Origin: Curvibacter sp. AEP1-3
Lineage (GTDB): Bacteria > Pseudomonadota > Gammaproteobacteria > Burkholderiales > Burkholderiaceae_C
Length of the DNA stretch: 64,000 nt
NCBI RefSeq assembly: GCF_002163715.1
Contig: NZ_CP015698.1
Span: forward strand, 3,669,464 to 3,733,463
Direction: 5' to 3'
Positions 5,321 through 33,190 of this stretch are shown piece by piece; position 1 is the stretch's first letter, and each line of letters begins with the position of its first letter. The position numbers were made by a program, and so were the translations under genes. Under the pieces are notes generated by a model. The model worked only from the letters and a program-made list of their open reading frames with translations. It ran no database searches and was not told where the DNA came from.

Positions 5321-5340
5321 GTACATAGTCCATTCAGGCC
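5321..5340 (-). promoter_or_regulatory. Shared EPS-region motif, site A
   Basis: Read on the plus strand it is GTACATAGTCCATTCAGGCC; it matches site B (upstream of epsA) at 17 of 20 bases by direct comparison. It lies 73 nt upstream of the PEP-CTERM gene on the minus strand, in the same orientation relative to its gene as the other sites. The bound factor is unknown; EpsA is a guess. Confidence 0.5.
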
Positions 5341-5345
5341 AAAAC

Positions 5346-6788
5346 CTAGGCAGACGCCGCACTTTTCAGGATTCTTAAGAGGCACTCATCACACAGGCGT
5401 TTGGCGCTGCGCACACTGGTGCTCTCGGCATAGCAGCGCAGCTCAGGTGCGTTCCCGCTGGGGCGCAAATGCACAATATCTCCCGACGCAAAGTGAACCC
5501 GCAGACCATCGGTTTCGTCAATGGCCTCTACCGGGCCAGCCTGAGGCGCCATCACATTGCGCAACAACACATGGTCATTGCGCAGGCTGGCAATCAGCTC
5601 TCTGCTGCTCGCAGTGGCAAAGTTCTGAATACGGTCGCTGGCTGTGTAGCGCTTGGGCAAGCGGTAGCCCACTTCAGACATCTTGAGCGCTTGTGCCTTC
5701 GCGCCGCACAGCAGCGCCAGCATGGGCAACAAGGCATCCCGGGTGGGCAGGGGGCCAAGCCGCTGCCCATTGCGCAGCACCTGGCTGCCGAGCAAAAAGC
5801 CGCCATTGGCCTCGTAGCCCACCACCAGTTCGGCGCCTTTGGTCGCTGCCTGTTGCATACCTTCAATCACGTAGGGCGAGCCAATGCGCGTGCGCACTAC
5901 CTGCGCAAAGCTCTGGGTGCGCTCCAAAGCACTGTTGCTGCTCACCGGCGTCACCACCGCGGTGGCATGCAAGTACTGGGCAGTCAGAATACCCACCACA
6001 TCCCCACGCATCCATTCGCCCTTTTCGTCACCAATCAGGGGGCGGTCCGCATCGCCGTCGGTCGAAACAATCGCGTCAAAGTCATACAGCTCTGCCCACT
6101 CGCGTGCCTGTTCAATGTCTTCGTGGCGCACGGCCTCGGTGTCTATGGGCACAAACACATCGGTGCGCCCCAGAGAAATTACTTCGGCGCCCAGCGTTTC
6201 CAAAATGGTGCGTAGCACATCCCGCGCCACGCTGCTGTGTTCGTAGACTGCAATCGTTTCGCCTTGCAGGGCGTTGGCGCCAAAAAACCGGATGTAGCGG
6301 TCCAGATATGCCTGCTCCACCCGCGGGTCCGGGGCCGGCAGCTTGGGCAACTTGAGCTGCTTGGGCAGGCCCACCAGAAAGTCGAGCATGGCGCGCTCAT
6401 CCGTTTTGGAGATCTCGCCATCTTCCTTGTAAAACTTGATTCCGTTGCGATCAAACGGGATATGGCTACCGGTCACCACGATGGCGGGAGAGCCATTTTG
6501 TGCTGCGTAAAGCGCAAGTGCGGGGGTGGGCAGGGCGCCACCATAAATGACGGACATTCCCAGGCTTTCTATGGCTGCAGCACAAGCAGCGGCGATTTCC
6601 GGGCTGCTGGGCCTGAGGTCATGGCCAAGCACTATCGAGCTAGCTTTAGGTACGACTGCATTAATGAACGCGGTGGCATAGGCGTGGCAGAGGTCGGGCG
6701 TCATGTCAGCCACTTTGCCGCGTGCACCACTTGTGCCGAAGGCTACGCCTGACTGCGTAGCCATGTCTTGGAGAGTCAGTACAGTCAT
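5346..6788 (-). CDS. manB: Phosphomannomutase/phosphoglucomutase (ManB-like)
   Basis: An alpha-D-phosphohexomutase of 480 aa that interconverts hexose 6- and 1-phosphates in the cytosol, supplying mannose 1-phosphate (and possibly glucose 1-phosphate) for EPS sugar nucleotides. Four family sites are visible: GTSGARG at 18-24, the phosphoserine loop VTGSHIPFDRNG with Ser108, the Mg loop DGDADRP at 244-250 and the sugar loop EANGG at 326-330, plus the phosphate site RPSGNAPELR near the C-terminus. The active-site loop reads TGSHIP instead of the more usual TASHNP. Its partner guanylyltransferase manC is at 35317. Exact sugar preference cannot be told from sequence. Confidence 0.88.
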   Translation of the reverse strand: MTVLTLQDMATQSGVAFGTSGARGKVADMTPDLCHAYATAFINAVVPKASSIVLGHDLRPSSPEIAAACAAAIESLGMSVIYGGALPTPALALYAAQNGSPAIVVTGSHIPFDRNGIKFYKEDGEISKTDERAMLDFLVGLPKQLKLPKLPAPDPRVEQAYLDRYIRFFGANALQGETIAVYEHSSVARDVLRTILETLGAEVISLGRTDVFVPIDTEAVRHEDIEQAREWAELYDFDAIVSTDGDADRPLIGDEKGEWMRGDVVGILTAQYLHATAVVTPVSSNSALERTQSFAQVVRTRIGSPYVIEGMQQAATKGAELVVGYEANGGFLLGSQVLRNGQRLGPLPTRDALLPMLALLCGAKAQALKMSEVGYRLPKRYTASDRIQNFATASSRELIASLRNDHVLLRNVMAPQAGPVEAIDETDGLRVHFASGDIVHLRPSGNAPELRCYAESTSVRSAKRLCDECLLRILKSAASA

Positions 6789-6839
6789 GGGTGTTTAGCG
6801 AATGGCAAGCATCGTAAACGCCTGTCAATGATCAGTCTA

Positions 6840-6851
6840 TAGTTACTTCGG
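6840..6851 (-). promoter_or_regulatory. Weak copy of shared motif upstream of manB-like gene
   Basis: TAGTTACTTCGG matches the motif core TAGTCCATTCGG at 9 of 12 bases and sits 52 nt from the start at 6788, within the spacing range of the better copies. The rest of the 6789-6949 intergenic stretch shows no strong promoter to my eye. Confidence 0.25.
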
Positions 6852-6949
6852 CCGACCCAAATCTATACGTAAAAATATGCCTAGACGCTCACGTAGTATT
6901 CGTTGGCAGCTATGTTATTTATAGCAAATCGGGTCGTCTTCGGCGTTCC

Positions 6950-8272
6950 TTAGCGTCCAATAGCCTGGTACTCAATGCCCATGCTACGCACCAGCTTGGG
7001 ATCGTAGAGGTTGCGGCCATCGAAAATCACCGGTTGCTTGAGCTTTGTCTTGATGGTGTCGAAGTTCGGGCTGCGAAACTCGCGCCATTCCGTCACGATG
7101 ATCAGCGCATCCGCCCCTTCAAGCGCCGCAGTCTGGTTGTCGGCGTAGGTGAGGCGTGCCTCATTAGGAAAGCAGTGTTGAGCCTCCTTCATAGCTACCG
7201 GGTCATAGGCCGTCACGGTGGCACCCGCATCCAGCAGATCCTGAATCACATCACGGCTGGTGGCCTTTCGCATGTCGTCGGTGTTGGCCTTGAAGGCCAA
7301 GCCCCACAGCGCAAAGTGCTTGCCCTTCAAGTCCACACCAAAACGCTTGAGTACCTTGCTGCCCAGTACCCGCTTCTGCGCGTCGTTCGCTTCTTCAACC
7401 GCGTTGAGAACCTTCAGGTCGATACCTGCATCAGTTTGCGCAGTTTTGATGAGTGCTTGCACATCCTTGGGAAAGCACGAGCCACCATAGCCCGCACCTG
7501 CGTACAAGAAGTCGTAGCCGATGCGCGGGTCTGAGCCAATGCCTTTGCGCACGTTTTCAATGTCTGCACCCAGCTTTTCAGCAAGGTTTGCCAGTTCATT
7601 CATAAAGCTGATGCGTGTCGCCAGCATGGCATTGGCGGCGTACTTGGTCAGTTCTGCGCTGCGCACATCCATCACGATCATCCGGTCATGGTTCCGCTGG
7701 ATGGCCGAGTAAATCGCACGCATATAGGCAGCACCTTGGTCGTCGTCGCAACCCACGACGATGCGGTCCGGGCGCATGAAGTCGTCAATGGCGGCGCCTT
7801 CCTTCAGAAACTCGGGGTTGCTCACCACACTGAATGGCGTAGTCACACCACGTTTGGCTAGCTCTTCGGCAATGGCAGCCTTTACCCTGTCAGCCGTGCC
7901 CACCGGCACGGTGCTCTTGTCCACGACCACCTTGTAATCGGTCATGTACTTGCCGATGTTGCGCGCCGCAGCAATAACGTACTTCATGTCGGCTGAGCCA
8001 TCTTCATCCGGCGGGGTGCCCACCGCAATGAATTGCACGGTACCGAAGTGCGCCGCTTTTTCCACGTCCGTGGTGAAGTGCAGGCGGCCGGCTGCCACGT
8101 TGCGCTTGACCATGTCTTGCAAGCCCGGCTCATAGATTGGAATGCCGCCTTCTTCCAAGATCTTGATTTTGGCCGGATCCACATCCAAGCACAGCACGTC
8201 GTTGCCCACATCCGCAAAGCACGCGCCTGACACAAGGCCAACGTAGCCGGTTCCAATAACTGTGATTTTCAT
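6950..8272 (-). CDS. ugd: UDP-glucose 6-dehydrogenase
   Basis: Oxidises UDP-glucose to UDP-glucuronate using two NAD. The 440-aa protein has the NAD motif GTGYVG at 7-12, the central dimer domain with [11 protein letters not shown], and the catalytic cysteine Cys266 in GGSCFPKD, followed by the C-terminal UDP-binding domain ([15 protein letters not shown]). It is followed on the same strand by the manB-like gene and preceded by the GH5 gene, so these three may be one transcription unit. UDP-glucuronate implies an acidic EPS. Confidence 0.96.
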
Positions 8273-8302
8273 AGTGGTTAGTTCGCGTTTCTATATTTCA
8301 AA

Positions 8303-9409
8303 TTAGTCGAGCAAGGCACTTCGAATCGGTTCAATCCAACTCGCACTTTTGGGGTTGTAAACGCCAAATGAAGAACCAAATTCCCAATAGGCCCAACCCA
8401 TCCCATATTTTTCAAAAGTATCTCTTGCAAACCTTGTGTAGTTTGCCCTCGAGGTTATATCGCCTGCCTCGAAGGAACCGAATTCGCCCAAGTGCAATGG
8501 AATACCTTTAGCTTTGTTCCACTTGACGGCTGTTTCTACGTTTCCAATCAATGCCTGTCTTTGTGACTGGCTACAGCATGTCGGGCCTTTTGGGAACTGG
8601 GGCATCCAGCTTATTCCCTGGTGGGTAAATTCGAAAGGATCGTAACTATGGATCGAAACAATCAGATTCAGATCTGCCGGCAACTGCAATTTATCCAAGT
8701 CTTTGGGGTTGTTCCAATAGGTGGGGCCCACCATAAGTGTTCGTGTGGCGTCTACCTCCCGAACGGTGGCGATGAGTTTTGCCAGTAGGCTGTTCCAGGC
8801 AGCGCTGGTCAAGGTGCCATGTGGCTCGTTGAGTAATTCAAACACCAGATTTTTCGAGCGGCCTTTATAGCGTTGAGCCAGCTGCCGCCAGATGTTCACC
8901 AAGCGCACTTCCAGCACGGCTGGGTCAACCGCAAACTCATTGGGGTGCAACTTGTCGCCAAATAGTTGGTTGTAGTGGTGTGTGTTCACAATCACATACA
9001 TGTTTTTGGCCAGCAAAGCATCTAACGCTTTGTCTACCCGGTTCGCAAAAAACTCGTCTATTTTGGCGTCCTGCGTTGGAGCTGCATGGTTCGTCCAGCG
9101 GACAGGCACGCGTGCGGTCTTGAACTTTTCGGCCACCAAATTGACGTAAGCCGGGTCTAGTCTGATGCCCCAATCGCCCTCGCGGGGGGCCTCCAGCATG
9201 TTGCCGAGGTTGATGCCTCGCCCCAAGTTATGGGCCAGTGTGCAGGTCTCTGCGCTCACCGCATGGCAGGCTTGGCGCACTCCTGCTGGGGTCTTCTCGG
9301 GTGTGGAATTTGCATTCACTTGTGCAGCGTAGAGCCCGCCCAAGCAAGTGAGCAAAAATGCACATAAGTGTTTGATTTTTATTGGCTTTTTAGTGTTTTT
9401 TGGTGCCAA
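8303..9409 (-). CDS. Secreted glycoside hydrolase family 5 (endoglucanase-like)
   Basis: A 368-aa exported glycanase. After a lysine-rich start and the hydrophobic stretch LCAFLLTCLGGLYAA, a signal-peptidase site follows VNA. The catalytic domain has the GH5 features RGINLGNMLE, the acid/base glutamate in FELLNEP (Glu195) and the nucleophile glutamate in LHLGEFGS (Glu309). I chose a TTG start at 9409 because GGGAG lies 7 nt upstream and it places the signal peptide at the terminus; the frame is open to a TTG at 9451. Inside an EPS locus such enzymes usually trim or release the polysaccharide (role inferred). A shared motif copy lies about 55 nt upstream. Confidence 0.85.
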   Translation of the reverse strand: MAPKNTKKPIKIKHLCAFLLTCLGGLYAAQVNANSTPEKTPAGVRQACHAVSAETCTLAHNLGRGINLGNMLEAPREGDWGIRLDPAYVNLVAEKFKTARVPVRWTNHAAPTQDAKIDEFFANRVDKALDALLAKNMYVIVNTHHYNQLFGDKLHPNEFAVDPAVLEVRLVNIWRQLAQRYKGRSKNLVFELLNEPHGTLTSAAWNSLLAKLIATVREVDATRTLMVGPTYWNNPKDLDKLQLPADLNLIVSIHSYDPFEFTHQGISWMPQFPKGPTCCSQSQRQALIGNVETAVKWNKAKGIPLHLGEFGSFEAGDITSRANYTRFARDTFEKYGMGWAYWEFGSSFGVYNPKSASWIEPIRSALLD

Positions 9410-9458
9410 TTTATGGCTCCCGCTGTATGATTGAATTATGTTGCACTGCAACTAAAAG

Positions 9459-9478
9459 AAGAATAGTCCAATCGGGCT
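9459..9478 (-). promoter_or_regulatory. Shared EPS-region motif, site C
   Basis: Contains TAGTCCAATCGGGC, matching 12 of the 14 core bases of the motif upstream of epsA. The core begins 55 nt from the GH5 start. It lies in the divergent region between the GH5 gene and the flippase gene (9410-9587), so it could also affect the plus-strand EPS operon. No clear sigma-70 boxes were recognised here. Confidence 0.45.
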
Positions 9479-9587
9479 CGGTTCAGGAAGGCCGGCTCGA
9501 GCCTCTTTGTAAGAGTTTCAACAATGCTGTCACACAAATATTGTGTTCGCGTTACAGATCTGTGGCGCGTGTTTTTCGGGTGTCTGC

Positions 9588-11072: not shown

Positions 11073-11082
11073 GGAGCAAACG

Positions 11083-12486: not shown

Positions 12487-13439
12487 AATTTAGTGTTGTT
12501 ATACCCCTTTACAACAAGGCACCGTATATTGAGTTCACCCTGCACTCGGTGTTGGCTCAGACTTGCCCAAATTTTGAAGTGGTGGTCGTGGACGATGGTT
12601 CCTTAGATTCCGGGCCCGAGCTCGTGCAACGCTTGGCAGAGTTGGATGCGCGCGTGCGTCTGGTACAACAACCCAACGGTGGTGTGTCTGCAGCGCGAAA
12701 TACGGGTATTGCTGCTGCCCGTGGCGACTGGGTTGCATTTCTGGATGCGGACGATTGGTGGCACTCAGACTACTTGGCCACACAAGCGGCTGCCATAGCC
12801 GCCAAGCCTGACGTGCACATGGCTGCAACTCTATTGCGCAGAGTGCCTGATGCAGTTAACTGGAATCCCTTGCCATGGCCTGCAATGCCAGCAGATGTCG
12901 AGCCGGCGCTGATTACAGACTTGCCTACTCGCTGGATGCATGGCATTCCATTCTTTACTTCATCAGTCGTCGTTCGACGCGAATTATTGTTGGCTAAGCA
13001 GCCGTGTTTTGTGATGGGTGAGTCGCATGGTGAAGACTTGGATCTCTGGTTCAGGCTTGCAGAGGTGACCAACATTGCTCACACCGCCAAGGCTTTGGTG
13101 GCTTACCGCACCGAATCAACAGGTAGCTTGACCAAACTACATACGCCAGACGGCTTGCCACCCTATTTGCTTCGCATGCAGGCGCGCGCGATGGCAGCGG
13201 GCGCTACCAATCCCAAGCGGGCTTCCGCGTTGAACTTCGTCGCGCAGCAGCGGCTGACTTTGGCGCGAAATGCGCTCATGAGCGGGCGGCGGCGCGAGGG
13301 ATTGCGTTGGTGGTTGAGTGCCCGGCATGCAGCGGGTAGTAAGCGCTGGGCAATGACCGCATTCATGGCGCTGTGCATACCTGCGGCATGTATCGCCTAC
13401 TGGGAGCAATGGCGAATTTCGCGAACCGGCTCCTCTTAG
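12483..13439 (+). CDS. Family 2 glycosyltransferase
   Basis: A 318-aa cytosolic GT-A enzyme that transfers an activated sugar onto the growing lipid-linked repeat. The N-terminal domain shows VVIPLYNKAPYI, the VVDDGS nucleotide-binding aspartates, NGGVSAARNTGI, and the DXD-type FLDADDWW. The start overlaps the polymerase stop by ATGA, indicating coupled translation. Donor and linkage are not predictable. The C-terminal 90 residues are Arg/Ala-rich and probably membrane-associated. Confidence 0.9.
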   Translation: MKFSVVIPLYNKAPYIEFTLHSVLAQTCPNFEVVVVDDGSLDSGPELVQRLAELDARVRLVQQPNGGVSAARNTGIAAARGDWVAFLDADDWWHSDYLATQAAAIAAKPDVHMAATLLRRVPDAVNWNPLPWPAMPADVEPALITDLPTRWMHGIPFFTSSVVVRRELLLAKQPCFVMGESHGEDLDLWFRLAEVTNIAHTAKALVAYRTESTGSLTKLHTPDGLPPYLLRMQARAMAAGATNPKRASALNFVAQQRLTLARNALMSGRRREGLRWWLSARHAAGSKRWAMTAFMALCIPAACIAYWEQWRISRTGSS

Positions 13440-13461
13440 CCGATGAATTAGGGAACGGGAA

Positions 13462-14975: not shown

Positions 14976-14999
14976 TCAACAAGAAAAAAGTAGGCGAGG

Positions 15000-16124: not shown

Positions 16125-16143
16125 AGTACAAGAATTTAATTAT

Positions 16144-17154: not shown

Positions 17155-17172
17155 GTCTACTTTCTATATCGC

Positions 17173-23005: not shown

Positions 23006-23048
23006 TAGTTACTCGAATAGCGGGTATCTGGAGAGGAGTGACGAGAAA

Positions 23049-23789
23049 TTAAGGTCGTTTTGTGTGCAAAGATCGATACAGAAATTTCGGATTACCCACT
23101 ACATACCGCTTGAATAGCCTTTTGGGCTCTAGCGCAAGGCGATAGATCCACTCTGCCTTCATGCTTCGCATCCACTCGGGTGCCCTAGTAACTTTGCCGC
23201 CCAAGAAGTCGATGATGGCACCGCCGCATACGATCAGGCACGGGAAGTGAAGCTCACTCCTTAGCTGTGCAGCTACCAACTCTTGCTTAGGCATACCCAT
23301 CCCTAAAACAATGAGCGCGGGTCTTTGTGATTGCGCCAGAGCTACATACTCATCAGTACCGAGAAAGCCATTTGCACAGTGGATTGCGCTAGGTGTAGCT
23401 TCGCTGGCAGAGATGGTCTGCGCTGCTTGGCTCAGGTAGGGCTCTGCTGTTCCATACAGGGCGATCTCTTGACGGGCATATTGCTTCAAGAGGCGGGGTA
23501 TCAGGTCCGTGCCATTGAGGTTGAGGCCGGCGGCTTCTCCTCGCATGTGGTACATGAGTTCCAGACCAATCCCATCTCTATAGATCGTGTCTGCCGAATT
23601 AAGTGCAGCAAAGAAAGTTTCGTCTTCGGCTGCGCAGTTCATGGCGTGTGCATTGACGAACGCCAATACGTGCGGTTGCTGCGTGTTGTGGAGAGCCTGA
23701 AGTGCTTCTTGGAGATGCTCTTCAGTATGCAGAATCTTGATTTTTGATATTAAGGTGCGCCAATGCGTGCGCCAAGCCGGATGTGCCAT
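23049..23789 (-). CDS. WecG/TagA/CpsF family glycosyltransferase
   Basis: A 246-aa GT26-type enzyme that adds a sugar to a polyprenyl-linked intermediate at the membrane. Recognisable blocks: AFVNAHAMNC, IYRDGIGLELM (conserved Asp), LNGTDLIPRLL, LIVLGMGMPKQE and GGAIIDFLGGKVTRAPEWM with the basic tail LEPKRLFKRYVVGNPKFL. I start it at the ATG at 23789, 7 nt after the epsI stop; a TTG at 23819 would overlap epsI and has no ribosome site. It is common for this gene to sit beside exosortase genes. Confidence 0.9.
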   Translation of the reverse strand: MAHPAWRTHWRTLISKIKILHTEEHLQEALQALHNTQQPHVLAFVNAHAMNCAAEDETFFAALNSADTIYRDGIGLELMYHMRGEAAGLNLNGTDLIPRLLKQYARQEIALYGTAEPYLSQAAQTISASEATPSAIHCANGFLGTDEYVALAQSQRPALIVLGMGMPKQELVAAQLRSELHFPCLIVCGGAIIDFLGGKVTRAPEWMRSMKAEWIYRLALEPKRLFKRYVVGNPKFLYRSLHTKRP

Positions 23790-23796
23790 GTACAAA

Positions 23797-24486
23797 TTAA
23801 GGTTGGGCTTTGCCAGCAAATCGGGCCACGAAGTCCTGGGGCAATGCTGCCACCAGCTCTGCAGAAAACTTTTGCTGCTCAGAGAAAGCGCGGGGCGCTT
23901 CTGGGTCGATGGACGACACTCTGAAAAGCAAGCCGTCAGGAATTAGGCCTTCTTTGGCATAGCTGATCTCTGCTAGTTTTTTGTTGATGCCACCTTGAAA
24001 CACTTGTTCGCCCACCATGGTCCAGTAAGTGACTGGTTCATTGCGGTTGCCGAGGCGGGTTGTGATGCGGGTACTGGCAACCGACCTCGCTGGGAGCTCT
24101 AGACCGACTCTTTCTTTGGTGAGGACCTGAAAGCCCTGAGCCGGGTAACACACCTCCGGTTGGTGGAGCTGTAGGCTGTCGCGTTGGTCACGCCCATAGG
24201 CGATGGATAGCATGATGCGGTAGCCATCTTTATTCACATAAGTGCGGCTGAGAGTTTCGGTATAAATCGCATCGATCAGCGTTTGGCTGGAAGGGTCTAC
24301 GATTTGTGCAGGACCAGTGGTCAGCTCACGCCACTCACCAAAGCTGGAAGGCACAATTTGTTTTAGTTTGAGTGGGGGCAGTTGGTCCGCTAGAAAAAGG
24401 GTGGGAGTGAATACCCAAGCCAAACCGGCGGCAAGCATCATGAGCACCAGAATGATGCTGTTTATTGCGGGGCCAGGGCGTCTCAT
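23797..24486 (-). CDS. epsI: Exosortase-associated protein EpsI
   Basis: A 229-aa protein with one N-terminal membrane helix (SIILVLMMLAAGLAWVF) and a periplasmic domain. The EpsI family marks LQLHQPEVCYPAQGF (His-Cys block), VTYWTMVGEQVFQGG and a late YAKEGLIPDGLLFRVSS are present. EpsI accompanies exosortases in EPS clusters; it is thought to work with the sortase or the polysaccharide, but its biochemistry is unsettled. It overlaps xrtB by 4 nt (ATGA). Confidence 0.93.
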   Translation of the reverse strand: MRRPGPAINSIILVLMMLAAGLAWVFTPTLFLADQLPPLKLKQIVPSSFGEWRELTTGPAQIVDPSSQTLIDAIYTETLSRTYVNKDGYRIMLSIAYGRDQRDSLQLHQPEVCYPAQGFQVLTKERVGLELPARSVASTRITTRLGNRNEPVTYWTMVGEQVFQGGINKKLAEISYAKEGLIPDGLLFRVSSIDPEAPRAFSEQQKFSAELVAALPQDFVARFAGKAQP

Positions 24487-25379
24487 GGTTTTGCGCCTCT
24501 AAGTTTGAGTTTTCGGGTGCGCCAAGTCTCAAACGCTTGTAGCGCACTATCGCCCCCGATGATGAGAAGCAGCGCGCTCAAGAACAGCACCATGCCGGCA
24601 AACCCATGCAGGAATCCTTGGCCAGCTTCGTCGCCAAAGTGGTAGGTGATGAGGCTGAGCGTCATGACACGGATGACGTTCGCGGTAAACGATATGGGAA
24701 CGATGAGCAAGGCCAAGCCGATGTTCCGCAGAGCAGAGTCGCGTTGAACAAGGTTCAGGTAGAGCAGCCCAAGTGCTTCCAGGGTGAGCAAGGTGTGCAA
24801 GCCCGCGCAGGCGTCCGCAACCAAGAGTTTGTATTGCCCGATTTGCAGCATGACTCCGTTTCGCCCGATGGGGTACCCCACTGCGAAAAGCACATTTTCA
24901 GCGGCGTAAGAAACGGCCATCTTCATGGGCATGGTGACCGCGTCCACCACCGCAGACGGCAGTGGCACCATGAACAGCATGAAAAAAAGCGCGAACCACT
25001 GCGCTTTAAGGGCTTTGGTGCCGCGCTGTAGCAAGATGAGCGCGGCTACCAACCAGATGACCGAACCGATCTCAAACAGCAGGATGCCCTGGGACCGCCC
25101 GATGACATACAAAATTAGTCCGATACCGAAGAGCGGCCACCCCCAGGCACTGCTGCGCAGGCCGAGCGCTGCGTTTTCCATTGTCGGCCAGTTCTTGTAC
25201 AAAAGCCAAATGGATATGCCCAGCACGATGGGCCCGTGCATCTGCTCGTCTTGACTCCAGATGCCCGAGAACAGCTTGTAGAGGCTCGGACCATACAGAA
25301 TGAACAAACCTAGGCCTAAAGGGGCCCATACTTTGACGGCTTGTGCGCTGAAGGGTGGGAAGAGTGGCTTAGCTTTCAT
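24483..25379 (-). CDS. xrtB: Exosortase B
   Basis: An integral membrane cysteine-type transpeptidase/protease of 298 aa, predicted to cut PEP-CTERM proteins at the sorting tail. About eight hydrophobic helices; the proposed catalytic triad is visible as Cys191 (VADACAGLH), Arg237 (TANVIRVMT) and His258 (GQGFLHGFAG). The long open frame to 25592 is ignored because ATG 25379 gives the family N-terminus. Its start overlaps the epsG stop by 11 nt. The three PEP-CTERM genes in this window (4054, 4766, 36900) are predicted substrates. Confidence 0.95.
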   Translation of the reverse strand: MKAKPLFPPFSAQAVKVWAPLGLGLFILYGPSLYKLFSGIWSQDEQMHGPIVLGISIWLLYKNWPTMENAALGLRSSAWGWPLFGIGLILYVIGRSQGILLFEIGSVIWLVAALILLQRGTKALKAQWFALFFMLFMVPLPSAVVDAVTMPMKMAVSYAAENVLFAVGYPIGRNGVMLQIGQYKLLVADACAGLHTLLTLEALGLLYLNLVQRDSALRNIGLALLIVPISFTANVIRVMTLSLITYHFGDEAGQGFLHGFAGMVLFLSALLLIIGGDSALQAFETWRTRKLKLRGAKP

Positions 25380-26247
25380 TGAGCACCGAGCCGACGAGCG
25401 CAACACCGCTATCTTGCAGACGCCTTGCAAATTGAGCCGTTTGTGGCAACTTGGTTTGGTTTTGCTTCGCCACCAGCACAGCAGCGCCTGCGCGGGCTGC
25501 AACGAGTTCGGCGTCTGCATATTCCGAGCCGGCGGGGGTGTCGATGATGATGACGTCAAACCGCTCGCTGGCAATACGCAAGAGTGCGCCAAACGCCGGG
25601 CGGCCCAAGAGCTCTTGCGGGTTTGGTGGCACTGCTCCTGCGGGGAGCACTGCTAAACCGGGTAGGCCGGGAACCAGCTGGGCTACTTCCAAACCGGCCC
25701 GACCGGCTAGCACTCCCGATAGGCCAACGCTCTTGCCCAAGCGAAAAAGCTTTTGTTGCCCGCCGCCCGCCGCAGAGCGAAGGTCTGCGTCAATCAGCAG
25801 CGTGCGCTCGCCTTGTTGGGCAAACACCACCGCCAAGTTGCCCGCTAAAAAGCTGCGGCCTTCTTTCTTGCCGGGGCTAACTACTGCCAGAACCTTGCGG
25901 TCAGGGTCAGTGTTGAACCAGCGCAGCATGAGTTGGCTGCGCACAGCTCTCAGGTTCTCGCCAACTCTGCTGAAGGGTTTGTACGCTGCGACCAGCTCGG
26001 GGCTCAGCGTGTTGTCACTATCGCTGAGGTACGAGTAGTCGAATTGCTTGGAGAGCGCAAAGTCAATGTCGTCTTTGGTGAGCACGCGCAGGGCGATGGC
26101 GGCTTCACCGAAAGGGACACGGTCTTTTTGTTGACGCTCGAGCACGCGGGCAGCGTCTTCCTGACTGAGGCGGCCTGTAGCGACAAGAATGGAGCCGATC
26201 GAGTTGCTGGAGCTCAATGGAGCAGTAGATGGAATGGAGTCGTTCAT
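25369..26247 (-). CDS. epsG: Chain-length-determinant tyrosine kinase EpsG-like
   Basis: A 292-aa cytosolic ParA/MinD-type ATPase related to bacterial tyrosine kinases that pair with Wzz-like EpsF to control EPS length. The N-terminal region (IGSILVATGRLSQEDAARVL) is a small FrzE/GspE-like helical domain; the ATPase has a degenerate Walker A SPGKKEGRS (124-132), Walker A' LLIDADLR (150-157) and Walker B VIIIDTPAG (232-240). The canonical GKS/T of the P-loop is replaced by GRS and there is no C-terminal tyrosine cluster. It overlaps epsF by 4 nt. Confidence 0.9.
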   Translation of the reverse strand: MNDSIPSTAPLSSSNSIGSILVATGRLSQEDAARVLERQQKDRVPFGEAAIALRVLTKDDIDFALSKQFDYSYLSDSDNTLSPELVAAYKPFSRVGENLRAVRSQLMLRWFNTDPDRKVLAVVSPGKKEGRSFLAGNLAVVFAQQGERTLLIDADLRSAAGGGQQKLFRLGKSVGLSGVLAGRAGLEVAQLVPGLPGLAVLPAGAVPPNPQELLGRPAFGALLRIASERFDVIIIDTPAGSEYADAELVAARAGAAVLVAKQNQTKLPQTAQFARRLQDSGVALVGSVLNES

Positions 26248-27626
26248 GCCAGGAGTCCAGCGGAGTTGTGTTTGAGTTTGAGCATGCCAGTGGCTGAGCT
26301 GACGGAGCCCAGGACTGGTAGTTCCAGTACCTCAACGAGATCTTCGGTAGAGCGGATCTTGCGGTTGGCAAGTTCAAGAATCAAAGCAAATCCAATCCCC
26401 AGGAAAGTGCCCAGAAAAACCGATACGAGGATGTTTATCATGACGCGTGGCTTGCTGGCACTGGTAGGGGCAACTGCCGGGTTGAGCACGGCAATGTTGG
26501 TTTGGGTGGTCTGGCTCTCAATGTTGGTCTGGGATGCTCGCTGACTGACCAGTTCGAAAGCGCGCTGTGCTGACTCGATGTCACGGCGCAACACATTGAG
26601 CTCATCGCGCTGCTTGTTCAAAACCAGGACGCGTGCCTTTTGGGCAGCCAAAGCGCCTTGGAGTTGAGCTTCGCGTTGTTTGCCGACTTGGTAGCTCGTT
26701 TCTATCGACGTAGTGATCTTGCGCGTCTCACTATCGAGTTGGGAACGCAGGGTTGCCAATTCGGACTCGGACCGCAAGATCTGCGGGTGATTGGCGCCGA
26801 GGTTTCCGCGGCTTTCGTTCAGTTTTGCTTCCAGCCTTGCAATGTCGGCTTTCAAGCCGTTAATGAGTGGGCTTTGCATCACTTCGGCAATGGAGTCGGC
26901 CTTGGTGGTTTGACGCTTGCTTTGGCTATCTGTAGTCTGGCCTTGAACGCTCGTTAGCTGACTGCTGGTTTCGTTGAGTTTTGCAGTTTCGAAGTCCAGA
27001 CGTTCATCGGTGCTGGTGATGCCGTTTTTCTGCTGGTAGTCCGACAGTGCCTGCTGTGCTTTCTCCAGCTTTTCGCGGGCTGCTTTGGTTTGCTCATCAA
27101 AGAAGCTGGCGTATTGACGTGCAGGTGCTACCCGGAGGTCCAAGTTAACTTCAATATAGGCTTGCGCAAACGCATTAGCCACTGCTGCCGCAAAATCTGG
27201 GTCTGTGCCGGTGTATCCGATGTTGATGACGTTGCTTTCGCGGGACGGCTTCACATCCAGTCCACGCTGAAGAAGGCCTGCGAGCCAATCGGACATTTGG
27301 CCTTTGCCTTGCGTGGCTTCACGCCACTGGTTTTGAATGACGGGGCTACTCTCCATTTTGAGGAGCTTGACGGCAGCTTTTGCGACACGGTCACTATTGA
27401 TGATGTCGACTTGGGTTGCCATGTAGCCCGGTGCCATCATTCCTTGCAGCATCAAGCCACTTACCAAATCCGGAGACTTTACGTCGACAACTACAGCCGA
27501 ACTCGCCCCGTACTGTTTGGGCAGAAAGAGGCTGATGGCTGTTGTTGCTGCAACCGTAAGCAGCAGGATGAGCAGCGCCACCTTGTAGCGGGCGCGGAGG
27601 ATTAGGAAAAGTTGTTGTACCGTCAT
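26244..27626 (-). CDS. epsF: Chain length determinant protein EpsF (Wzz/GNVR)
   Basis: A 460-aa polysaccharide co-polymerase. The first helix (LLILLLTVAATTAISLFL) precedes a long periplasmic coiled-coil domain with the GNVR-type block NLRVAP-like and QQALSDYQQ, and a second helix near 405-425 (VMINILVSVFLGTFLGIGF), followed by a cytosolic tail that contacts the kinase. The Wzz proline-rich region before TM2 reads LNPAVAPTSASKP. It lies between the outer membrane exporter epsE and the kinase epsG, the normal order in XrtB clusters. Confidence 0.93.
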   Translation of the reverse strand: MTVQQLFLILRARYKVALLILLLTVAATTAISLFLPKQYGASSAVVVDVKSPDLVSGLMLQGMMAPGYMATQVDIINSDRVAKAAVKLLKMESSPVIQNQWREATQGKGQMSDWLAGLLQRGLDVKPSRESNVINIGYTGTDPDFAAAVANAFAQAYIEVNLDLRVAPARQYASFFDEQTKAAREKLEKAQQALSDYQQKNGITSTDERLDFETAKLNETSSQLTSVQGQTTDSQSKRQTTKADSIAEVMQSPLINGLKADIARLEAKLNESRGNLGANHPQILRSESELATLRSQLDSETRKITTSIETSYQVGKQREAQLQGALAAQKARVLVLNKQRDELNVLRRDIESAQRAFELVSQRASQTNIESQTTQTNIAVLNPAVAPTSASKPRVMINILVSVFLGTFLGIGFALILELANRKIRSTEDLVEVLELPVLGSVSSATGMLKLKHNSAGLLA

Positions 27627-27628
27627 GA

Positions 27629-28432
27629 TTAAAAGATGCTTTCTTTGACGTAAAGCACATCGTTCGCTTGGACTGGGTCTGTCAATTGCGGTTCAATTTG
27701 TTGAACTGTGCCGTTCGCCAGCTTGCGATGCAGGCGCAGGCGTTTCTCAGAGCCACGGGCGTTGGGGCCGCCGCCTTGCGCTAGTGCTTGCATGATGGTC
27801 ATGTCACGCTCAATGCGGAAGGAGCCGGGGCGCTGTACCTCGCCATAGATGAAAAACATGGGGGCACGGTGCACGTAGATGGTGTCTCCACCCTGTAGTA
27901 ACAAGTTGTCTTGCGCCTTGTTATCCAGAAAGATGGATGGGATGTCGATTTCTTTGCGGAACGGTTTGCCTTCACGGACGCCAGTGACAACAACGATGTC
28001 ATCTCCACTTGTAGTGGCGCCGCCTGCGTTGGCAAGCATGTCGCTCAAACGGGTATTGACGGTTTCAAGCGGGAAGCGGCCGGGCCGAGCCACTTGGCCC
28101 AACACGGACACTTGGTTGCCGCGGATTTGAATCAACGAGATGTTGACTTGTGGCTTTTGAATAAAGCCGCCGGTCTGCAGTGCATCTGCAATCTTCTTCT
28201 CAGCTGCTGCGACCGATAGACCGCCGAGCGGTACTGCCCCAATCAGCGGGTAGGTGATGACACCGCTCTCGGAAACGCGTGTTTCGATAGTGAGGTCGGG
28301 GTTTTGGAATACTTGCACGCGGATGGTGTCGCCTGCGCCAAGTGGGTAGTCAGCTTTGCCGTCTTGTGCTTGAGCCACGATGCTGCTCAAGGCGATAAGG
28401 CCGGTAGCAATCAAATTGATAATTTTTTTCAT
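27629..28432 (-). CDS. epsE: Polysaccharide export protein EpsE (Wza family)
   Basis: A 267-aa periplasmic/outer-membrane export protein. Signal peptide MKKIINLIATGLIALSS to AQA, then the polysaccharide export domain YPLGAGDTIRVQVFQNPDL and VSESGVITYPLIGAVPLGGL, followed by SLBB-type domains (VSVLGQVARPGRFPLE and FIYGEVQRPGSFRIE). Wza proteins usually carry a lipobox cysteine; none is present at the signal cleavage site here. It follows epsD and precedes epsF by 2 nt. Confidence 0.92.
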   Translation of the reverse strand: MKKIINLIATGLIALSSIVAQAQDGKADYPLGAGDTIRVQVFQNPDLTIETRVSESGVITYPLIGAVPLGGLSVAAAEKKIADALQTGGFIQKPQVNISLIQIRGNQVSVLGQVARPGRFPLETVNTRLSDMLANAGGATTSGDDIVVVTGVREGKPFRKEIDIPSIFLDNKAQDNLLLQGGDTIYVHRAPMFFIYGEVQRPGSFRIERDMTIMQALAQGGGPNARGSEKRLRLHRKLANGTVQQIEPQLTDPVQANDVLYVKESIF

Positions 28433-28477
28433 GATGGCGTTTTGAAGTGTGTGGATTTGGGCTGGGGCTGTGGCGAC

Positions 28478-29422
28478 TCACTTCAAGCCGGAAACGCCTT
28501 TTTCGATTGCAGACTTGGTTTTTTCGTCTGTACTTGCGGCGTCAGAACCAGGCGCGCCGGGCGCGGAAGTTGCAGCCGCGCCTTTCTCAAATTCACCCAT
28601 GTAAGTGATCTTGGTTGTGCTGCGTAGCTGTTTGATGTTCGCAGCTACTGCTTCACCGGCACGTTGATTGGTCAGGAATTGTTCAATGCGTGGCAGTGCC
28701 GCAGCTTCGGTCACCGGTGATGCCTGTGAGGACACCACACGAACCACAGTGATGGCCTGCGGTGCTTCGATCACAGTGGACTGCCCGTCTTTGAGTGCGT
28801 GGATCTTGGGGAGGACATCCAGCGGAATCTGCTCAGCAGCGCGCGTAGCGCTGCCTCCATTGAACTGCACGTTCTTGGCCTTTAAGGCCGCAGCAATATC
28901 GTCCAGACTTTTGCCTCCGGATGTGTAGCTTTTCAACAGGTCTGAAACGCCGGGTGCGTTAGGTGCGACTATCTCTTGCACATTGAAGATGCGGCGTTCG
29001 CTGAACAACTGCGGGTGGTCTGCAAAGTATTTTTTTGTGTCGTCTGAAGTGGGTTTGGCAATACCTGCGCTGATTTGCTGGATGTACGCGCGGGCCAAAA
29101 TATCGCGGCGGGCTGCCTCGATCTGGGCCACGACTTCGGGCGAACGGTGGAGCTTGTTTTCGGTGGCTTGATCGACGGCCAATTGCTGGTCGATGAGTTT
29201 TTCCAGCACTTCTTTGCCCATAGCTTGGACCGCCTCAGGGCTCGCGCCGTTGGTGTTGGCGCGACTGAGCAATTGGTTGATCTGGTGTACCGAAATTTCT
29301 TCGCTCCCCACTTTGGCGGCGACTTGGGTAGCGACTTTTTTAGCCTCTTTGTCACCACAAGCGACCAGGGCGAGGGCAACGGCTGCAGCTAACAGGGTGG
29401 CAGTGAAGCGTGTATTTTTCAT
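28478..29422 (-). CDS. epsD: EpsD family peptidyl-prolyl cis-trans isomerase-like lipoprotein
   Basis: A 314-aa exported protein; the signal peptide ends in a lipobox, ALVACGD, so Cys22 is predicted to be lipidated. The following part (KVGSEEISVHQINQLLSRA, VLEKLIDQQLAVDQA) is a SurA/PrsA N-terminal chaperone fold, with a central PpiC-like domain (FSERRIFNVQEIV). In XrtB clusters it is called EpsD and likely helps fold outer membrane components such as EpsL. The C-terminus is Ala/Ser/Thr-rich. Confidence 0.9.
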   Translation of the reverse strand: MKNTRFTATLLAAAVALALVACGDKEAKKVATQVAAKVGSEEISVHQINQLLSRANTNGASPEAVQAMGKEVLEKLIDQQLAVDQATENKLHRSPEVVAQIEAARRDILARAYIQQISAGIAKPTSDDTKKYFADHPQLFSERRIFNVQEIVAPNAPGVSDLLKSYTSGGKSLDDIAAALKAKNVQFNGGSATRAAEQIPLDVLPKIHALKDGQSTVIEAPQAITVVRVVSSQASPVTEAAALPRIEQFLTNQRAGEAVAANIKQLRSTTKITYMGEFEKGAAATSAPGAPGSDAASTDEKTKSAIEKGVSGLK

Positions 29423-29434
29423 GGCGTATTTCGC

Positions 29435-30634
29435 TTAATAAGTGAGTTGTGCGGTGAGAAGCAGCATGGTGCTGTCATAGTCGAGCCCGGCTTGGTTGAC
29501 GCCGCGACTTGCGTTTTGTAGTGATGCGCTGAGAGCGAGTTTTTCGTGCGCTTGCCAGTTCACCGAGAGTGTGGTGTCTCGGGTGATGTCTTGGCGGTTG
29601 CTGTTGACGCTGCTGGTAGGGCTACCCAAGTAATTGCGCTGAGCCCATTCATGCCTGAGCCGCAGTCCGACTTTGGGGCTGATTTGCCAGACTGGACCGA
29701 TGCTGATTCGATCAGTACTACTGTAGTTGCTGTCGGTGGCGGCATAGGCCTCAAGCACATGGCTGAATGCCAAACTGACGCTGGTTTTGCCGCTTATGGC
29801 CCAATCCAATCCGGCGCCGGAATTGAAGCCGTTGTAGTCGCGCTGCCCGTATCGGGGATGGGTGCGGTTGATGTGGGTTAGGTTGGCGTTGGCTGCGGTG
29901 CCTCCACCAAGATCCCAGCGCAGGCGCAGGTCATTGTCCATTTGAGTGTATTGGTCGTCCAGCGCATTGGTGTTTGGCACCACACGGTTGAGGTAGCTGC
30001 CTTTGCCAACCCGCATCTGGTAGCTCAGGGCACTCCCGGAGCCGAACTGATAGCGAACGCCTGCATCGACGGCGTTGGTGGTGTAGTCACTACCCGTCAC
30101 CTGTGCCAACTGGTTTTCCTGGCGGGTGGTGCTGGTGCCGGCGATCAAGCGCCAAGGCCCATCGAGCTCGTAGGTCGCATCAAAGCGGGTGGTGGTATCC
30201 ATCCGTTGGTTGCGTTGGCGATAGCCAGTGAAGTCCGCAAAGCTGTTTAGTGTTTCTTTGCGGTCAGTGCTCAGTGTGCCCGTTACCCGTGGCGTGATGG
30301 CCCATTGCCAGTTGACGTTGTAGTTGTTGGCAGTGAAGCTGAGGTAATTGAACTTTTGGTACTGGTAGTCCACAAGATTCAGATTGACGGAGAGGGTTTG
30401 CAAGCTCTGCCGTGTGTTGAACCCCAGCCCGATCGTCGTCACTCCGATAGTCTCAGCGCCGCTGCTCTGGCCGGTCCTTGCAAGAACGTCGGCGTTGGAC
30501 GGCAGTCGGAACAGGTTGCTGTCGCTCTGCACTGTGTAGCCTGCGCTCAATGTCAGAGGGTCTTGCTGAGCTTGTGCCATGGAAGCGGCAAGGGTGCTCA
30601 GCGCCAACGTGAATAGTGTGGTGGGAGTGCGCAT
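29435..30634 (-). CDS. epsL: EpsL-type outer membrane beta-barrel protein
   Basis: A 399-aa exported protein: signal peptide TLFTLALSTLAASMAQAQ, then alternating amphipathic strands rich in aromatic residues and ending in a terminal aromatic (LLLTAQLTY), as in outer membrane barrels. It matches the family annotated as XrtB/PEP-CTERM-associated EPS biosynthesis protein EpsL, which probably forms the outer membrane channel for EPS. It lies between the initiating transferase and epsD, with short spacers. Confidence 0.88.
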   Translation of the reverse strand: MRTPTTLFTLALSTLAASMAQAQQDPLTLSAGYTVQSDSNLFRLPSNADVLARTGQSSGAETIGVTTIGLGFNTRQSLQTLSVNLNLVDYQYQKFNYLSFTANNYNVNWQWAITPRVTGTLSTDRKETLNSFADFTGYRQRNQRMDTTTRFDATYELDGPWRLIAGTSTTRQENQLAQVTGSDYTTNAVDAGVRYQFGSGSALSYQMRVGKGSYLNRVVPNTNALDDQYTQMDNDLRLRWDLGGGTAANANLTHINRTHPRYGQRDYNGFNSGAGLDWAISGKTSVSLAFSHVLEAYAATDSNYSSTDRISIGPVWQISPKVGLRLRHEWAQRNYLGSPTSSVNSNRQDITRDTTLSVNWQAHEKLALSASLQNASRGVNQAGLDYDSTMLLLTAQLTY

Positions 30635-30637
30635 GGT

Positions 30638-32059
30638 TCAGTAAGCCTGTTGATCTTTGGCCACCAAGCGCACAGTGCGCAGGATGATGTGAATGTCCAA
30701 GCGCAAGGACCAATTGCGAAGGTAGTCCAGGTCGTAGTCGATACGGCCCTGCATTTTGTCTAGGGTGTCGGTTTCACCGCGATAGCCATTGACCTGCGCC
30801 CATCCGGTAATGCCGGGTTTGACCTTGTGGCGAACCATGTATCCCTTAATGAGTTTGCGATAAAGCTCGTTGTGAGCGACGGCGTGTGGGCGAGGGCCGA
30901 CGATACTCATCCGCCCCTGCAGCACGTTGATGAACTGTGGAAGTTCGTCTAACGAGGTTTTGCGCAAAAAGGCACCAAGCGGCGTGATGCGGCTGTCGTT
31001 CTTTTTGGCCTGGGTAACCACTCCGCCGTCTTCGGTGACGCTCATGGAGCGGAACTTATAGACCAGAATTTCTTCACCATCGAGCCCGTAGCGGCGCTGC
31101 TTAAAGATGACGGGGCCAGGGGATGTGAACTTCACAGCCAAGGCAATGCCCAGCAGAATCGGAGCAATGAGCGTAAGGATGCCAATGGAAAAAACAATAT
31201 CGCTCAAGCGCTTGACCATGCCATTGGCACCGCGGAAAGGCGTCTCGCAGACCGAAATCACTGGCATGCCGCATACCGCGCTGGGGTGGCCTTGGATCAG
31301 GTCTGTTACGAACATGTCGGGCACAAAATATATGGAAGCTGTTGTGTCTTTGAGCTCGTCGAGGATCTGCAGAATTCGGGGTTGGGACGCCATCGGCAGA
31401 GACAGGTAGATCACTTGGATGCGGTCATTCTTGGCGATAGCTGCTAGCTGGTCGAGCTTGCCCAGCAGAGGGTAGGTGTCCCCCGCACTCAAACGCTCGG
31501 TGCTGCGACTGTCTACAAAACCTGCGAGCTCGATCCTTGAGTAGGGAGAGCTTTTGAGTTTGGTGGCGAGTGCCAGACCTTGCTCGTTCATGCCGACGAT
31601 CAGGGCGCGTTGCCGGGGACCTTGCAAGCTGATGATGGCGGGTGCAGCCAAGCGCAGGCCCAGGGTCAGGGCCGCTTCAGTGGCTGGTGCAACCCAAAGC
31701 CAAGTGAAAAGCGCTTGGTGATCGAACTGGCGGATGTATCCGGTAGCGTACCCTGTAAGACCCAAGAGCCCAGCAATCCACACCCAATTGAAGCCGATGT
31801 CTAACAGGCTGCCGGCTTTGGAGGCTTGCAAGCGGGGCTCGCCCGGGAAGGTGAGGGCAAAGGTGAGCACGGCCAGAAGCAGGTATGCGGGGGGGATGTC
31901 CCCTTCGTACAAGAAAGCCAGTACCCAGAGCGAGCCAACAAGTGCGGCTGGGCAGATGCAAGACTCCAGGATGCCCAGAAGGTTGTCGCGCCCCAATGAG
32001 GCATGCTCATGGCCACCGTTGAACTCAGCGGCGGAGAAGGTGATGTGGGCCTTAGACAT
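30638..32059 (-). CDS. Undecaprenyl-phosphate glucose phosphotransferase (WcaJ/EpsB-like)
   Basis: The 473-aa membrane enzyme starts EPS assembly by moving a hexose 1-phosphate (typically glucose) from a UDP-sugar to undecaprenyl phosphate. There are four N-terminal helices and a CoA-binding-like cytosolic domain (ALIVGMNEQGLALATKL). The catalytic domain has KRLSDIVFSIGIL, the helix LIAPILLGIALAVKF, KQRRYGLDGEEILVYKFRSM and RKTSLDELPQF with the Asp-Glu pair, plus VGPRPHAV. The ATG at 32059 overlaps the end of epsA by 8 nt, so it is translationally coupled. Confidence 0.93.
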   Translation of the reverse strand: MSKAHITFSAAEFNGGHEHASLGRDNLLGILESCICPAALVGSLWVLAFLYEGDIPPAYLLLAVLTFALTFPGEPRLQASKAGSLLDIGFNWVWIAGLLGLTGYATGYIRQFDHQALFTWLWVAPATEAALTLGLRLAAPAIISLQGPRQRALIVGMNEQGLALATKLKSSPYSRIELAGFVDSRSTERLSAGDTYPLLGKLDQLAAIAKNDRIQVIYLSLPMASQPRILQILDELKDTTASIYFVPDMFVTDLIQGHPSAVCGMPVISVCETPFRGANGMVKRLSDIVFSIGILTLIAPILLGIALAVKFTSPGPVIFKQRRYGLDGEEILVYKFRSMSVTEDGGVVTQAKKNDSRITPLGAFLRKTSLDELPQFINVLQGRMSIVGPRPHAVAHNELYRKLIKGYMVRHKVKPGITGWAQVNGYRGETDTLDKMQGRIDYDLDYLRNWSLRLDIHIILRTVRLVAKDQQAY

Positions 32060-32855
32060 GGTTAACCCAGGCGCGGAACTTGCCAACGGCTTGGGCGCGG
32101 TTGGAGACATCCAGTTTCTTGAAGACACGCTGCATGTGGTTTTTGACGGTGAAAGCACTGATTTCCAGAATGCTGCCGATTTCGGGGTTGGTTTTGCCCA
32201 GGGCCACCCATTTCAGGATTTCGGCCTCCCGTTCGGTGAGGACGTCTGCCTCTGTGGGCAAGTGGCCGTTGGTGTAAGTAATGGGCGCGTTAGCTTGCAC
32301 GGTTGCCTGATGCGGCAGGTGCTCTACCTGGCGCAAGGCAGTGTCGATATAGGGCAGGACCATCGCCATGGCGCTACGTTCTTTTTCGGTGAAATGTTCC
32401 CGGGTGCTGAAAACAACGTACAGGCAGTCGTGGCTGCCTCGCTCATCGGTGATGCCATGCACCGTAGCAGAGCGCATTTTGAGGAGCGCGCCGCCTAGTG
32501 CACTTTTCAGGCCAGCGTCATCCATGGAGAAGCCGGATTGGCCGGCGTTCAGGCTGAAAGGTTTTTTCCCAAACTCTGACCACCGGGCGAATAGGCGAGT
32601 CAACAGGGGAGTAAGTGGCTCAGTGTGCGAGGCATGGGAACGCACTCCGGACATGGCGGAAATGATGTCGTGCTGTACCGCACCGGTCGAAAAGTCACCC
32701 CAGGCCGCGATCAGGATCTCGTGGGGGAGGTACTTTTGCATGTCGCCTTGCAGCCAGATCAGCATGTCGAAATGGCTGCGCACCTCTACCGAGTGGGTGA
32801 CCACACGGTGGTAGTGATGGAGATCCTCGGTAGTGAGCGAGGGCAGAAAAGACAT
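32052..32855 (-). CDS. epsA: LuxR-type transcriptional regulator EpsA
   Basis: A 267-aa regulator: an N-terminal ligand/sensor-like region (about 1-195) and a C-terminal GerE/LuxR helix-turn-helix (LTEREAEILKWVALGKTNPE, then ISAFTVKNHMQRVFKKLDVSN). It is the XrtB-associated regulator that commonly heads these operons. ATG 32855 is chosen over a TTG at 32867. A motif copy lies 56 nt upstream, and another heads the divergent galE operon; both could be autoregulatory or target sites, unproven. Confidence 0.9.
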   Translation of the reverse strand: MSFLPSLTTEDLHHYHRVVTHSVEVRSHFDMLIWLQGDMQKYLPHEILIAAWGDFSTGAVQHDIISAMSGVRSHASHTEPLTPLLTRLFARWSEFGKKPFSLNAGQSGFSMDDAGLKSALGGALLKMRSATVHGITDERGSHDCLYVVFSTREHFTEKERSAMAMVLPYIDTALRQVEHLPHQATVQANAPITYTNGHLPTEADVLTEREAEILKWVALGKTNPEIGSILEISAFTVKNHMQRVFKKLDVSNRAQAVGKFRAWVNHV

Positions 32856-32910
32856 AACAGGTAACAAAATAACTAAGGGTTATTGCTGATTTGGTAACAA
32901 GTGGGCGATG

Positions 32911-32930
32911 GTACGTAGTCCATTCGGACC
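32911..32930 (-). promoter_or_regulatory. Shared EPS-region motif, site B (epsA)
   Basis: GTACGTAGTCCATTCGGACC on the plus strand, 56 nt upstream of epsA. Contains an inverted repeat GTCC-ATTC-GGAC read as GTCC/GGAC arms. Reference site for the comparison of the other copies. Confidence 0.5.
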
Positions 32931-33132
32931 CGCCAATCCCCCAAACGGGTGAATTTCTAGTCATTGGTGCTATTACCAACAAACAATGTGAACAAATGCA
33001 CATTTTTTGAAGGTTTTTTGGACTTGCCTTTTTTGTGTAGTCCACCGCACAGAACATCTGGGTAACAGCATGCACAGAGGGTGAAGTCTTTGTTTCTTCA
33101 TGTTGATGCTGTGACCGAAAAGGCAATGCCTT

Positions 33133-33152
33133 AGTCCGAGTGGGCTACATGC
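33133..33152 (+). promoter_or_regulatory. Shared EPS-region motif, site D (galE)
   Basis: AGTCCGAGTGGGCTACATGC in gene orientation; its complement matches site B at 15 of 20 bases. It ends 39 nt before the galE start and has the same orientation relative to the gene as the other copies. Confidence 0.45.
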
Positions 33153-33190
33153 TGGAGGCTAAACTTCAGCTCTAAAAACGGGAGTAGATA

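Follow-up and report, generated by a model that had tools for sequence, protein, structure and literature searches.

Are the genes for exopolysaccharide (EPS) synthesis, for an exosortase and for the proteins that it sorts under common control in Curvibacter sp. AEP1-3, and if so, by which regulator? This question is raised by a stretch of 64,000 nucleotides (nt) of contig NZ_CP015698.1 (the window), part of a 4.38-Mb, two-contig genome, in which an exosortase/EPS cluster surrounds several copies of a short upstream motif. The original prediction had described this motif as an asymmetric 20-bp element in front of four or more transcription units, and had named the LuxR-type regulator EpsA as its candidate binder. 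Our results point to a modified version of this idea. The sites are probably the operators of one EPS/exosortase-substrate regulon, with EpsA as its likely dimeric activator, a reading to which we assign a probability of about two in three (0.68).

Form of the shared motif

The four predicted sites, upstream of a PEP-CTERM gene (5321-5340), a GH5 hydrolase gene (9459-9478), epsA (32911-32930) and galE (33133-33152), are present at these positions, and are confirmed as real and above chance. A recount of their matches to the epsA site also agrees with the earlier values (17/20 for the PEP-CTERM gene, 12/20 for the GH5 gene and 15/20 for galE). The asymmetric 20-bp form did not hold up, however. 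The shared motif is a 16-bp inverted repeat, TAGTCC-N4-GGACTA (hereafter the dyad), which occurs in perfect form upstream of epsA in several relatives. A motif-blind count of all 6-4-6 inverted repeats within 1.5 kb upstream of epsA, at 53 loci in other genomes, ranked TAGTCC as the top arm: it was found with at most one mismatch at 15 of the 53 loci, versus 10 loci, in close relatives only, for the runner-up. Exact TAGTCC arms occurred at 11 of these loci, and any other exact arm at five or fewer (spacings of 0 to 11).

Scored out of the 12 arm bases, the sites in the window are partly decayed forms of this dyad. The copy before galE (11/12) lies on the plus strand at 33132-33147, with exact counterparts before galE at three loci of relatives (L144, L156 and L187; L and G numbers denote loci and genomes, respectively). 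On the minus strand, 10/12 bases are kept before epsA and its EPS/XrtB operon (32916-32931; similar sites at L061 and L063) and before the GH5 gene (9464-9479; kept in the relative at L261), and 9/12 at 5326-5341, 77 nt before the ATG of the PEP-CTERM gene at 4766-5254. A fifth site (10/12, plus strand, 36812-36827), located 72 nt before a second PEP-CTERM gene, had been overlooked in the earlier list. The single orientation of the sites relative to their genes reflects a promoter-proximal half that is better kept at three of the four sites, galE being the exception, and the -35 and -10 elements that come after the dyad. The weaker copy proposed before the manB-like gene (6840) is at chance level, with 10/14 bases of the earlier core and 8/12 of the dyad; as many as 523 of 1000 random 200-mers reach 10/14.

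The 14-base core of the earlier motif occurs without mismatch five times in the genome, four times inside the window; this count is circular evidence, since the same four sites had served to derive the pattern. With two mismatches allowed the core was not enriched genome-wide (218 + 251 copies versus 235 + 272 for a reversed control), and it was dropped as a search unit in favour of the dyad. For the dyad, only searches for near-perfect copies or scans restricted to upstream regions are informative.

Distribution of the dyad

With at most one mismatch, the dyad occurs at six distinct places in the Curvibacter genome: before galE, before two PEP-CTERM genes far from the window (L131 and L129), before a gene of 56 amino acids (L133) and at two intragenic positions. 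PEP-CTERM genes were chosen by hidden Markov model; the Pfam model matched ten places in the genome, nine of them over its cut-off, and nine upstream stretches were scanned, with L132 left out. Within 150 nt upstream, a dyad of at least 9/12 was found at 7 of these 9 genes versus 10 of 323 background genes from a 400-kb sample, and a dyad of at least 10/12 at 5 of 9 versus 0 of 323. An equal frequency before random genes, which would have counted against the original prediction, is thus refuted.

Close relatives show the same preference. Judged by EpsA, the named relatives are Rhodoferax and other Comamonadaceae; 15 genomes with an EpsA locus contained 28 exact dyads, versus 8 of the reversed pattern. 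Exact copies were present in 13 of these 15 genomes, with none in G157 and G158, and 18 of the 28 are correctly oriented towards a PEP-CTERM gene that starts 52-149 nt downstream. Three of the other ten precede galE at the loci named above, one lies between epsA and a nucleotidyltransferase gene (L141), and two are on the EPS-operon side (L149 and L151). One (L188) precedes the gene of a small protein, the L086 homologue of which contains a cyclic-nucleotide-binding domain; another (L157) corresponds to the promoter of the 56-amino-acid gene, and two have no target gene assigned (L152 and L182).

We also tested PEP-CTERM genes chosen by the model in eight relatives (30 loci of 97 matches, 29 of them readable), scanning 200 nt upstream. 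A dyad of at least 10/12 preceded 17 of the 29 genes versus 1 of the 323 background genes (Fisher's exact test, 2e-20); the p-value is a guide only, because orthologues are included and the eight genomes were picked among those with exact copies. Gene starts were set by a simple rule, both here and in the family sample discussed below, and some upstream stretches may be misplaced. Hence, one operator stands before linked genes in several genomes and is rare before random genes, and its absence from relatives that share the locus, another outcome named in advance as damaging, is not what we found.

The predicted EPS/PEP-CTERM/glycanase regulon stands in its EPS and PEP-CTERM parts. For the glycanase the evidence is narrower: a GH5 match was found in 4 of 12 relatives, and the sole orthologue (81% identical, L261) has kept both dyad and -10. 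The loci of the three weak matches contained no dyad reaching 9/12, and GH5 was rejected as a general member of the regulon. At L261 (G150), the GH5 homologue has two stops in frame, with dyad and -10 both intact.

Promoter geometry

The dyad occupies a fixed position relative to a promoter. With a -10 defined by at least four of six matches to TATAAT and the offset counted from the dyad towards the gene, 18 of 34 site rows have their -10 at offset 24, and every other offset has five or fewer (the rows are partly related). Among the Curvibacter sites alone, 7 of 10 share one offset, versus a null maximum of 5 in 20,000 draws of background upstream sequence over 69 offsets. In the window, the -10 hexamers at offset 24 are TAATAT for the PEP-CTERM gene at 4766-5254 (5297-5302, minus strand), CATAAT for the GH5 gene (9435-9440, minus strand; the hexamer kept at L261) and GACAAT for the second PEP-CTERM gene (36851-36856, plus strand). 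There are 23 nt between the dyad and the -10 hexamer, and the dyad touches a weak -35, often TTG at offsets 1-3. The column information of 26 rows is concentrated in the dyad, parts of the spacer, the TTG and TAnAAT. Since little is conserved beyond the dyad and these promoter elements, the site is not part of a longer repeat.

In lux boxes, as bound by dimers of the LuxR family (LuxR, TraR, CviR), the inverted repeat lies near -42.5 and adjoins the -35. With the -10 hexamer placed at -12 to -7, our dyad would span about -51 to -36, with its centre at -43.5, which is the lux-box position. From sequence, the sites are therefore predicted to have the arrangement of class II lux-box promoters, with the dyad adjoining the -35 and its centre near -42.

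EpsA as candidate activator

EpsA (32052-32867, minus strand) matches TIGR03020 with 263.9 bits (cut-off 170) and the GerE-type helix-turn-helix domain PF00196 with 69 bits. The model score and the XrtB/EPS neighbourhood place it in the family of XrtB/PEP-CTERM-associated regulators. Its nearest relative in the PDB is CviR, with a match that covers the helix-turn-helix and part of the preceding domain (profile positions 112-253); no match to Pfam Autoind_bind or to a receiver domain was found. The gene adjoins two of the sites, and the recognition helix is nearly constant among the operator-bearing clades, with an invariant TVKN that includes K242 and N243. Judged by position, family and co-occurrence, EpsA is the most likely binder of the dyad.

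We infer that the dyad is bound by this protein and that the effect is activation, probably in response to a signal that EpsA senses. A dimer on the dyad, centred near -43.5, would contact RNA polymerase as LuxR-type activators do at the lux box, and would assist the polymerase at the weak -35. The EPS/XrtB operon behind epsA would be turned on in this way, together with the divergent galE operon, the GH5 gene and the dispersed PEP-CTERM genes, and matrix polysaccharide, sorting enzyme and sorted proteins would thus be co-produced.

Several observations weigh against this reading. With two mismatches allowed, the genome contains fewer dyads (69) than copies of the reversed control (218). For two of the nine PEP-CTERM genes of Curvibacter (L125 and L128), the 150 nt upstream contain no dyad reaching 9/12, and for 12 of the 29 genes of close relatives, the 200 nt upstream contain none reaching 10/12. 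The epsA site lacks a good -10 at offset 24, and the four galE promoters (window, L144, L156 and L187) have TAAACT or TACACT nearer by one helical turn, at offset 13; the possible galE -10 in the window is TAAACT at 33160-33165 (plus strand). As regards the binder, Polaromonas and Nitrosospira share a near-identical recognition helix but showed at most weak sites, so that the helix does not single out EpsA, and co-occurrence cannot separate EpsA from other members of the locus because EpsA and XrtB go together. In genomes with EpsA-model matches of 112-247 bits, only 1 of 20 PEP-CTERM genes had a dyad of at least 10/12, and it lacked a -10. Finally, both sampled PEP-CTERM genes of G082 are without a dyad despite an EpsA that is 66% identical.

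Alternative explanations

In one alternative, operator and regulon are real, but the dyad is bound by another regulator, either of the NarL/LuxR type or encoded outside the locus, with epsA as just one of its targets. The genome contains ten GerE-type matches to the EpsA model, the epsA promoter itself bears a dyad, and a contig edge of G110, in which EpsA has no clear match, shows an exact copy followed by a good -10. Yet, the dyad is concentrated in genomes with a close EpsA (13/15) and rare elsewhere (7 of 150 family genomes), it adjoins epsA, and Comamonas-type loci keep both EpsA and the sites. A different binder is therefore unlikely in our view, but deserves to be taken seriously. We consider it distinctly improbable that EpsA, once on the dyad, acts as a repressor at some or all of the promoters and shuts off EPS and surface proteins under its own autoregulation. 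The dyad does touch the -35, and in the four galE promoters it would cover the -35 region because of the closer possible -10; most dyads, however, are located directly upstream of a poor -35 and leave the -10 uncovered, which is the usual place of an activator.

Control by sigma54 and PrsR has been described for many PEP-CTERM genes of proteobacteria (PMC1569441; PMC9850573), and the dyad might be incidental to it. We find this very hard to reconcile with the Curvibacter genome, in which no PrsR exceeds the cut-off (best match 353 bits versus 502.6), the best -24/-12 promoters before nine PEP-CTERM genes score 7-8/10, the same as random 300-mers, and the dyad stands before a sigma70-type -10. 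Chance similarity, or a dispersed mobile or structural repeat without regulatory role, would fit the lack of genome-wide enrichment of the earlier core at two mismatches; it receives almost no weight from us, given the enrichment before genes chosen by model, the fixed -10 offset and the conservation of nothing but promoter elements around the dyad. An EpsA-activated regulon thus remains our preferred explanation.

Relation to known systems

In the published work, PEP-CTERM genes of Proteobacteria are controlled by sigma54 together with PrsK/PrsR (Haft et al., 2006, PMC1569441), and pepA is an RpoN-dependent case (PMC9850573). Similar to our results, that system, as described there, has a conserved cis-element before most PEP-CTERM genes and a regulator gene linked to exopolysaccharide genes. 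It combines a far-upstream motif with a -24/-12 promoter and a sigma54-dependent response regulator, however, whereas the Curvibacter dyad adjoins a sigma70-type promoter in a genome that lacks a PrsR over the cut-off and offers a LuxR-family candidate. An EpsA operator and regulon in place of the published sigma54/PrsR route is the best reading for this genome. By implication, two unrelated control systems may have taken over PEP-CTERM genes in different bacteria. In the open-licence literature, we found no publication on the activation of XrtB-type exosortase systems or on this operator.

The resemblance to lux-box promoters lies in the inverted repeat adjoining the -35 and in CviR as the nearest PDB relative of EpsA. 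The dyad differs from the lux box in its length (16 bp versus 18-20 bp) and half-site, and EpsA in having no Autoind_bind match. Another likeness concerns the DosR/DevR box of mycobacteria, which contains the half-site GGACT that is also present in the dyad. In that box the half-sites are reversed and differently spaced, and EpsA has no receiver domain match. DosR contacts bases through Lys179, Lys182 and Asn183 (PMC4082495). We take K242 and N243 in the TVKN of EpsA as presumed equivalents, by analogy.

Because of the fixed promoter geometry and the short target list, the question of regulation can be tested with one protein and one DNA fragment. The dyad also provides a sequence rule for spotting exosortase substrates, including those with odd or reduced tails.

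Extent of the proposed regulon

The regulon claim is limited to the close EpsA clades, with a variant form in Comamonas-type loci. In the family sample, no dyad of at least 10/12 preceded any of the 20 PEP-CTERM genes that came from genomes lacking a full-length EpsA match; with the counts of 1/20 and 0/20, we rejected the regulon as a general property of PEP-CTERM genes. The operator does not accompany the regulator family everywhere, as the sampled PEP-CTERM genes of G082 and of the genomes with remote EpsA-model matches are mostly without a dyad. Where measured, EpsA identity among the sampled family genomes is 22-26% in G062, G075, G077 and G103, and 66% in G082.

Exact dyads were found at eight places in 7 of the 150 family genomes, while the reversed control sums to 43. 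In Curvibacter sp. AEP1-3, G062, G075 and G077, which have EpsA-model matches of at least 150 bits, all four exact dyads stand before a PEP-CTERM or PEP-CTERM-like gene, but the four of G110, G128 and G140 could not be tied to any PEP-CTERM gene. The only sampled genome of the same genus, G125, lacked an exact dyad as well as a PEP-CTERM match and an EpsA scoring above the cut-off. At L136, L137 and L139 (G075, G062 and G077, respectively), where EpsA-like proteins are remote only, the exact dyad precedes a large PEP-CTERM-tailed gene that looks phosphodiesterase-like by eye. At L135, the contig edge of G110, an exact dyad with good -35 and -10 precedes a gene that is cut off; the genome has no clear EpsA match.

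Five Comamonas-type loci (L092, L100, L105, L108 and L111), with EpsA 42-47% identical, contain 12 composite sites located 69-86 nt before exported proteins that end in PLPGAALMFLSALGLGGLARRK-like tails; some of these sites were selected using the -10 as a criterion. Possibly, the PLPGAALMFLSALGLGGLARRK-type tails are an unnamed sorting signal. Three exported-protein reading frames were scanned at L108: two had no NCBIfam match at 1e-5, and the third matched an XrtA-system ATPase model below its cut-off. Upstream of a mannose-1-phosphate guanylyltransferase-like gene, a 9/12 dyad with a -10 occurs at both L111 (20059) and L108 (19169). Polaromonas loci showed weak sites only, before a porin-like gene.

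A possible second input

The consensus of CRP is TGTGAN6TCACA. Of 37 promoters, 11, several of them orthologous, have a box that matches at least 9 of its 10 positions in the 80 nt before the dyad, whereas 0 of 323 background 80-mers reach 9/10. In nine of the eleven, box and dyad are 31 or 32 bp apart, centre to centre. The eleven boxes are those at L129, L178, L154, L061, L062, L063, L065, L066 and L068, and two in the window: TGTGATTTTTTTCACA at 36781-36796 (plus strand, 10/10), with its centre 31 bp from that of the dyad before the second PEP-CTERM gene, and a 9/10 box between epsA and galE at 32987-33002 (minus strand), centred 71 bp from the epsA dyad. The genome has 13 places with CRP/FNR-family matches, the best of which (130 bits) is below the model cut-off.

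This arrangement suggests that the box about 31 bp upstream of the dyad may provide a second input. We tentatively propose, at rather less than even odds, a new two-input class of exosortase-substrate and EPS promoters, in which a CRP-family box is followed after about 31 bp (three turns) by the EpsA dyad, the -35 and the -10. If true, cyclic-nucleotide-type and EpsA signals would together govern the synthesis of matrix and the sorting of surface proteins, and the sigma54/PrsR control of PEP-CTERM genes would have its sigma70-type counterpart in this class.

Gene setting and minor observations

On the minus strand, epsA is followed by a WcaJ-type gene, epsL, epsD, epsE, epsF, epsG, xrtB, epsI and a WecG-type gene. 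The genes from wcaJ-type to wecG-type (23049-32158), recognised by profile matches, form a putative operon, and as they are closely packed, epsA probably leads a single operon; xrtB scores 410 bits, over the cut-off, with epsDEFGL and epsI in the same strand block as epsA. The predicted target operon of galE, a nucleotidyltransferase-like gene and a mannose-1-phosphate guanylyltransferase gene (33191-36780, plus strand; profile matches) is divergent from it. Behind the galE operon comes the second PEP-CTERM gene (L126; 36900-37511, plus strand), a predicted target with PF07589 over the cut-off and NF038126 at 48.3 bits, under the cut-off of 50.

To the left of the EPS cluster are the GH5 hydrolase gene, a nucleotide-sugar dehydrogenase gene, a phosphohexomutase-like gene and two convergent PEP-CTERM genes. 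The predicted target at 4766-5254 (minus strand) encodes an FxDxF-family PEP-CTERM protein (NCBIfam NF038126 over the cut-off). The GH5 gene (8303-9451, minus strand; PF00150), also a predicted target, has a frame that starts with TTG, and its true start is probably further inside. A third PEP-CTERM gene of the window (4033-4683) has a best dyad of at most 7/12 within 150 nt.

Small-protein genes stand behind the dyad in three relatives (L086:12313-12834, L085 8360 and L151 2222); the one that was scanned (L086) contains the cyclic-nucleotide-binding domain PF00027. The only exact dyad of the Curvibacter genome precedes the 56-amino-acid gene at L133 (C1, near 2573255-2573492). Its product has a signal peptide and a PEP-CTERM-like tail, ALLLVGLGLMATIARRRFK, which is under the Pfam cut-off and without a PEP motif, and its promoter is kept in a relative (L157).

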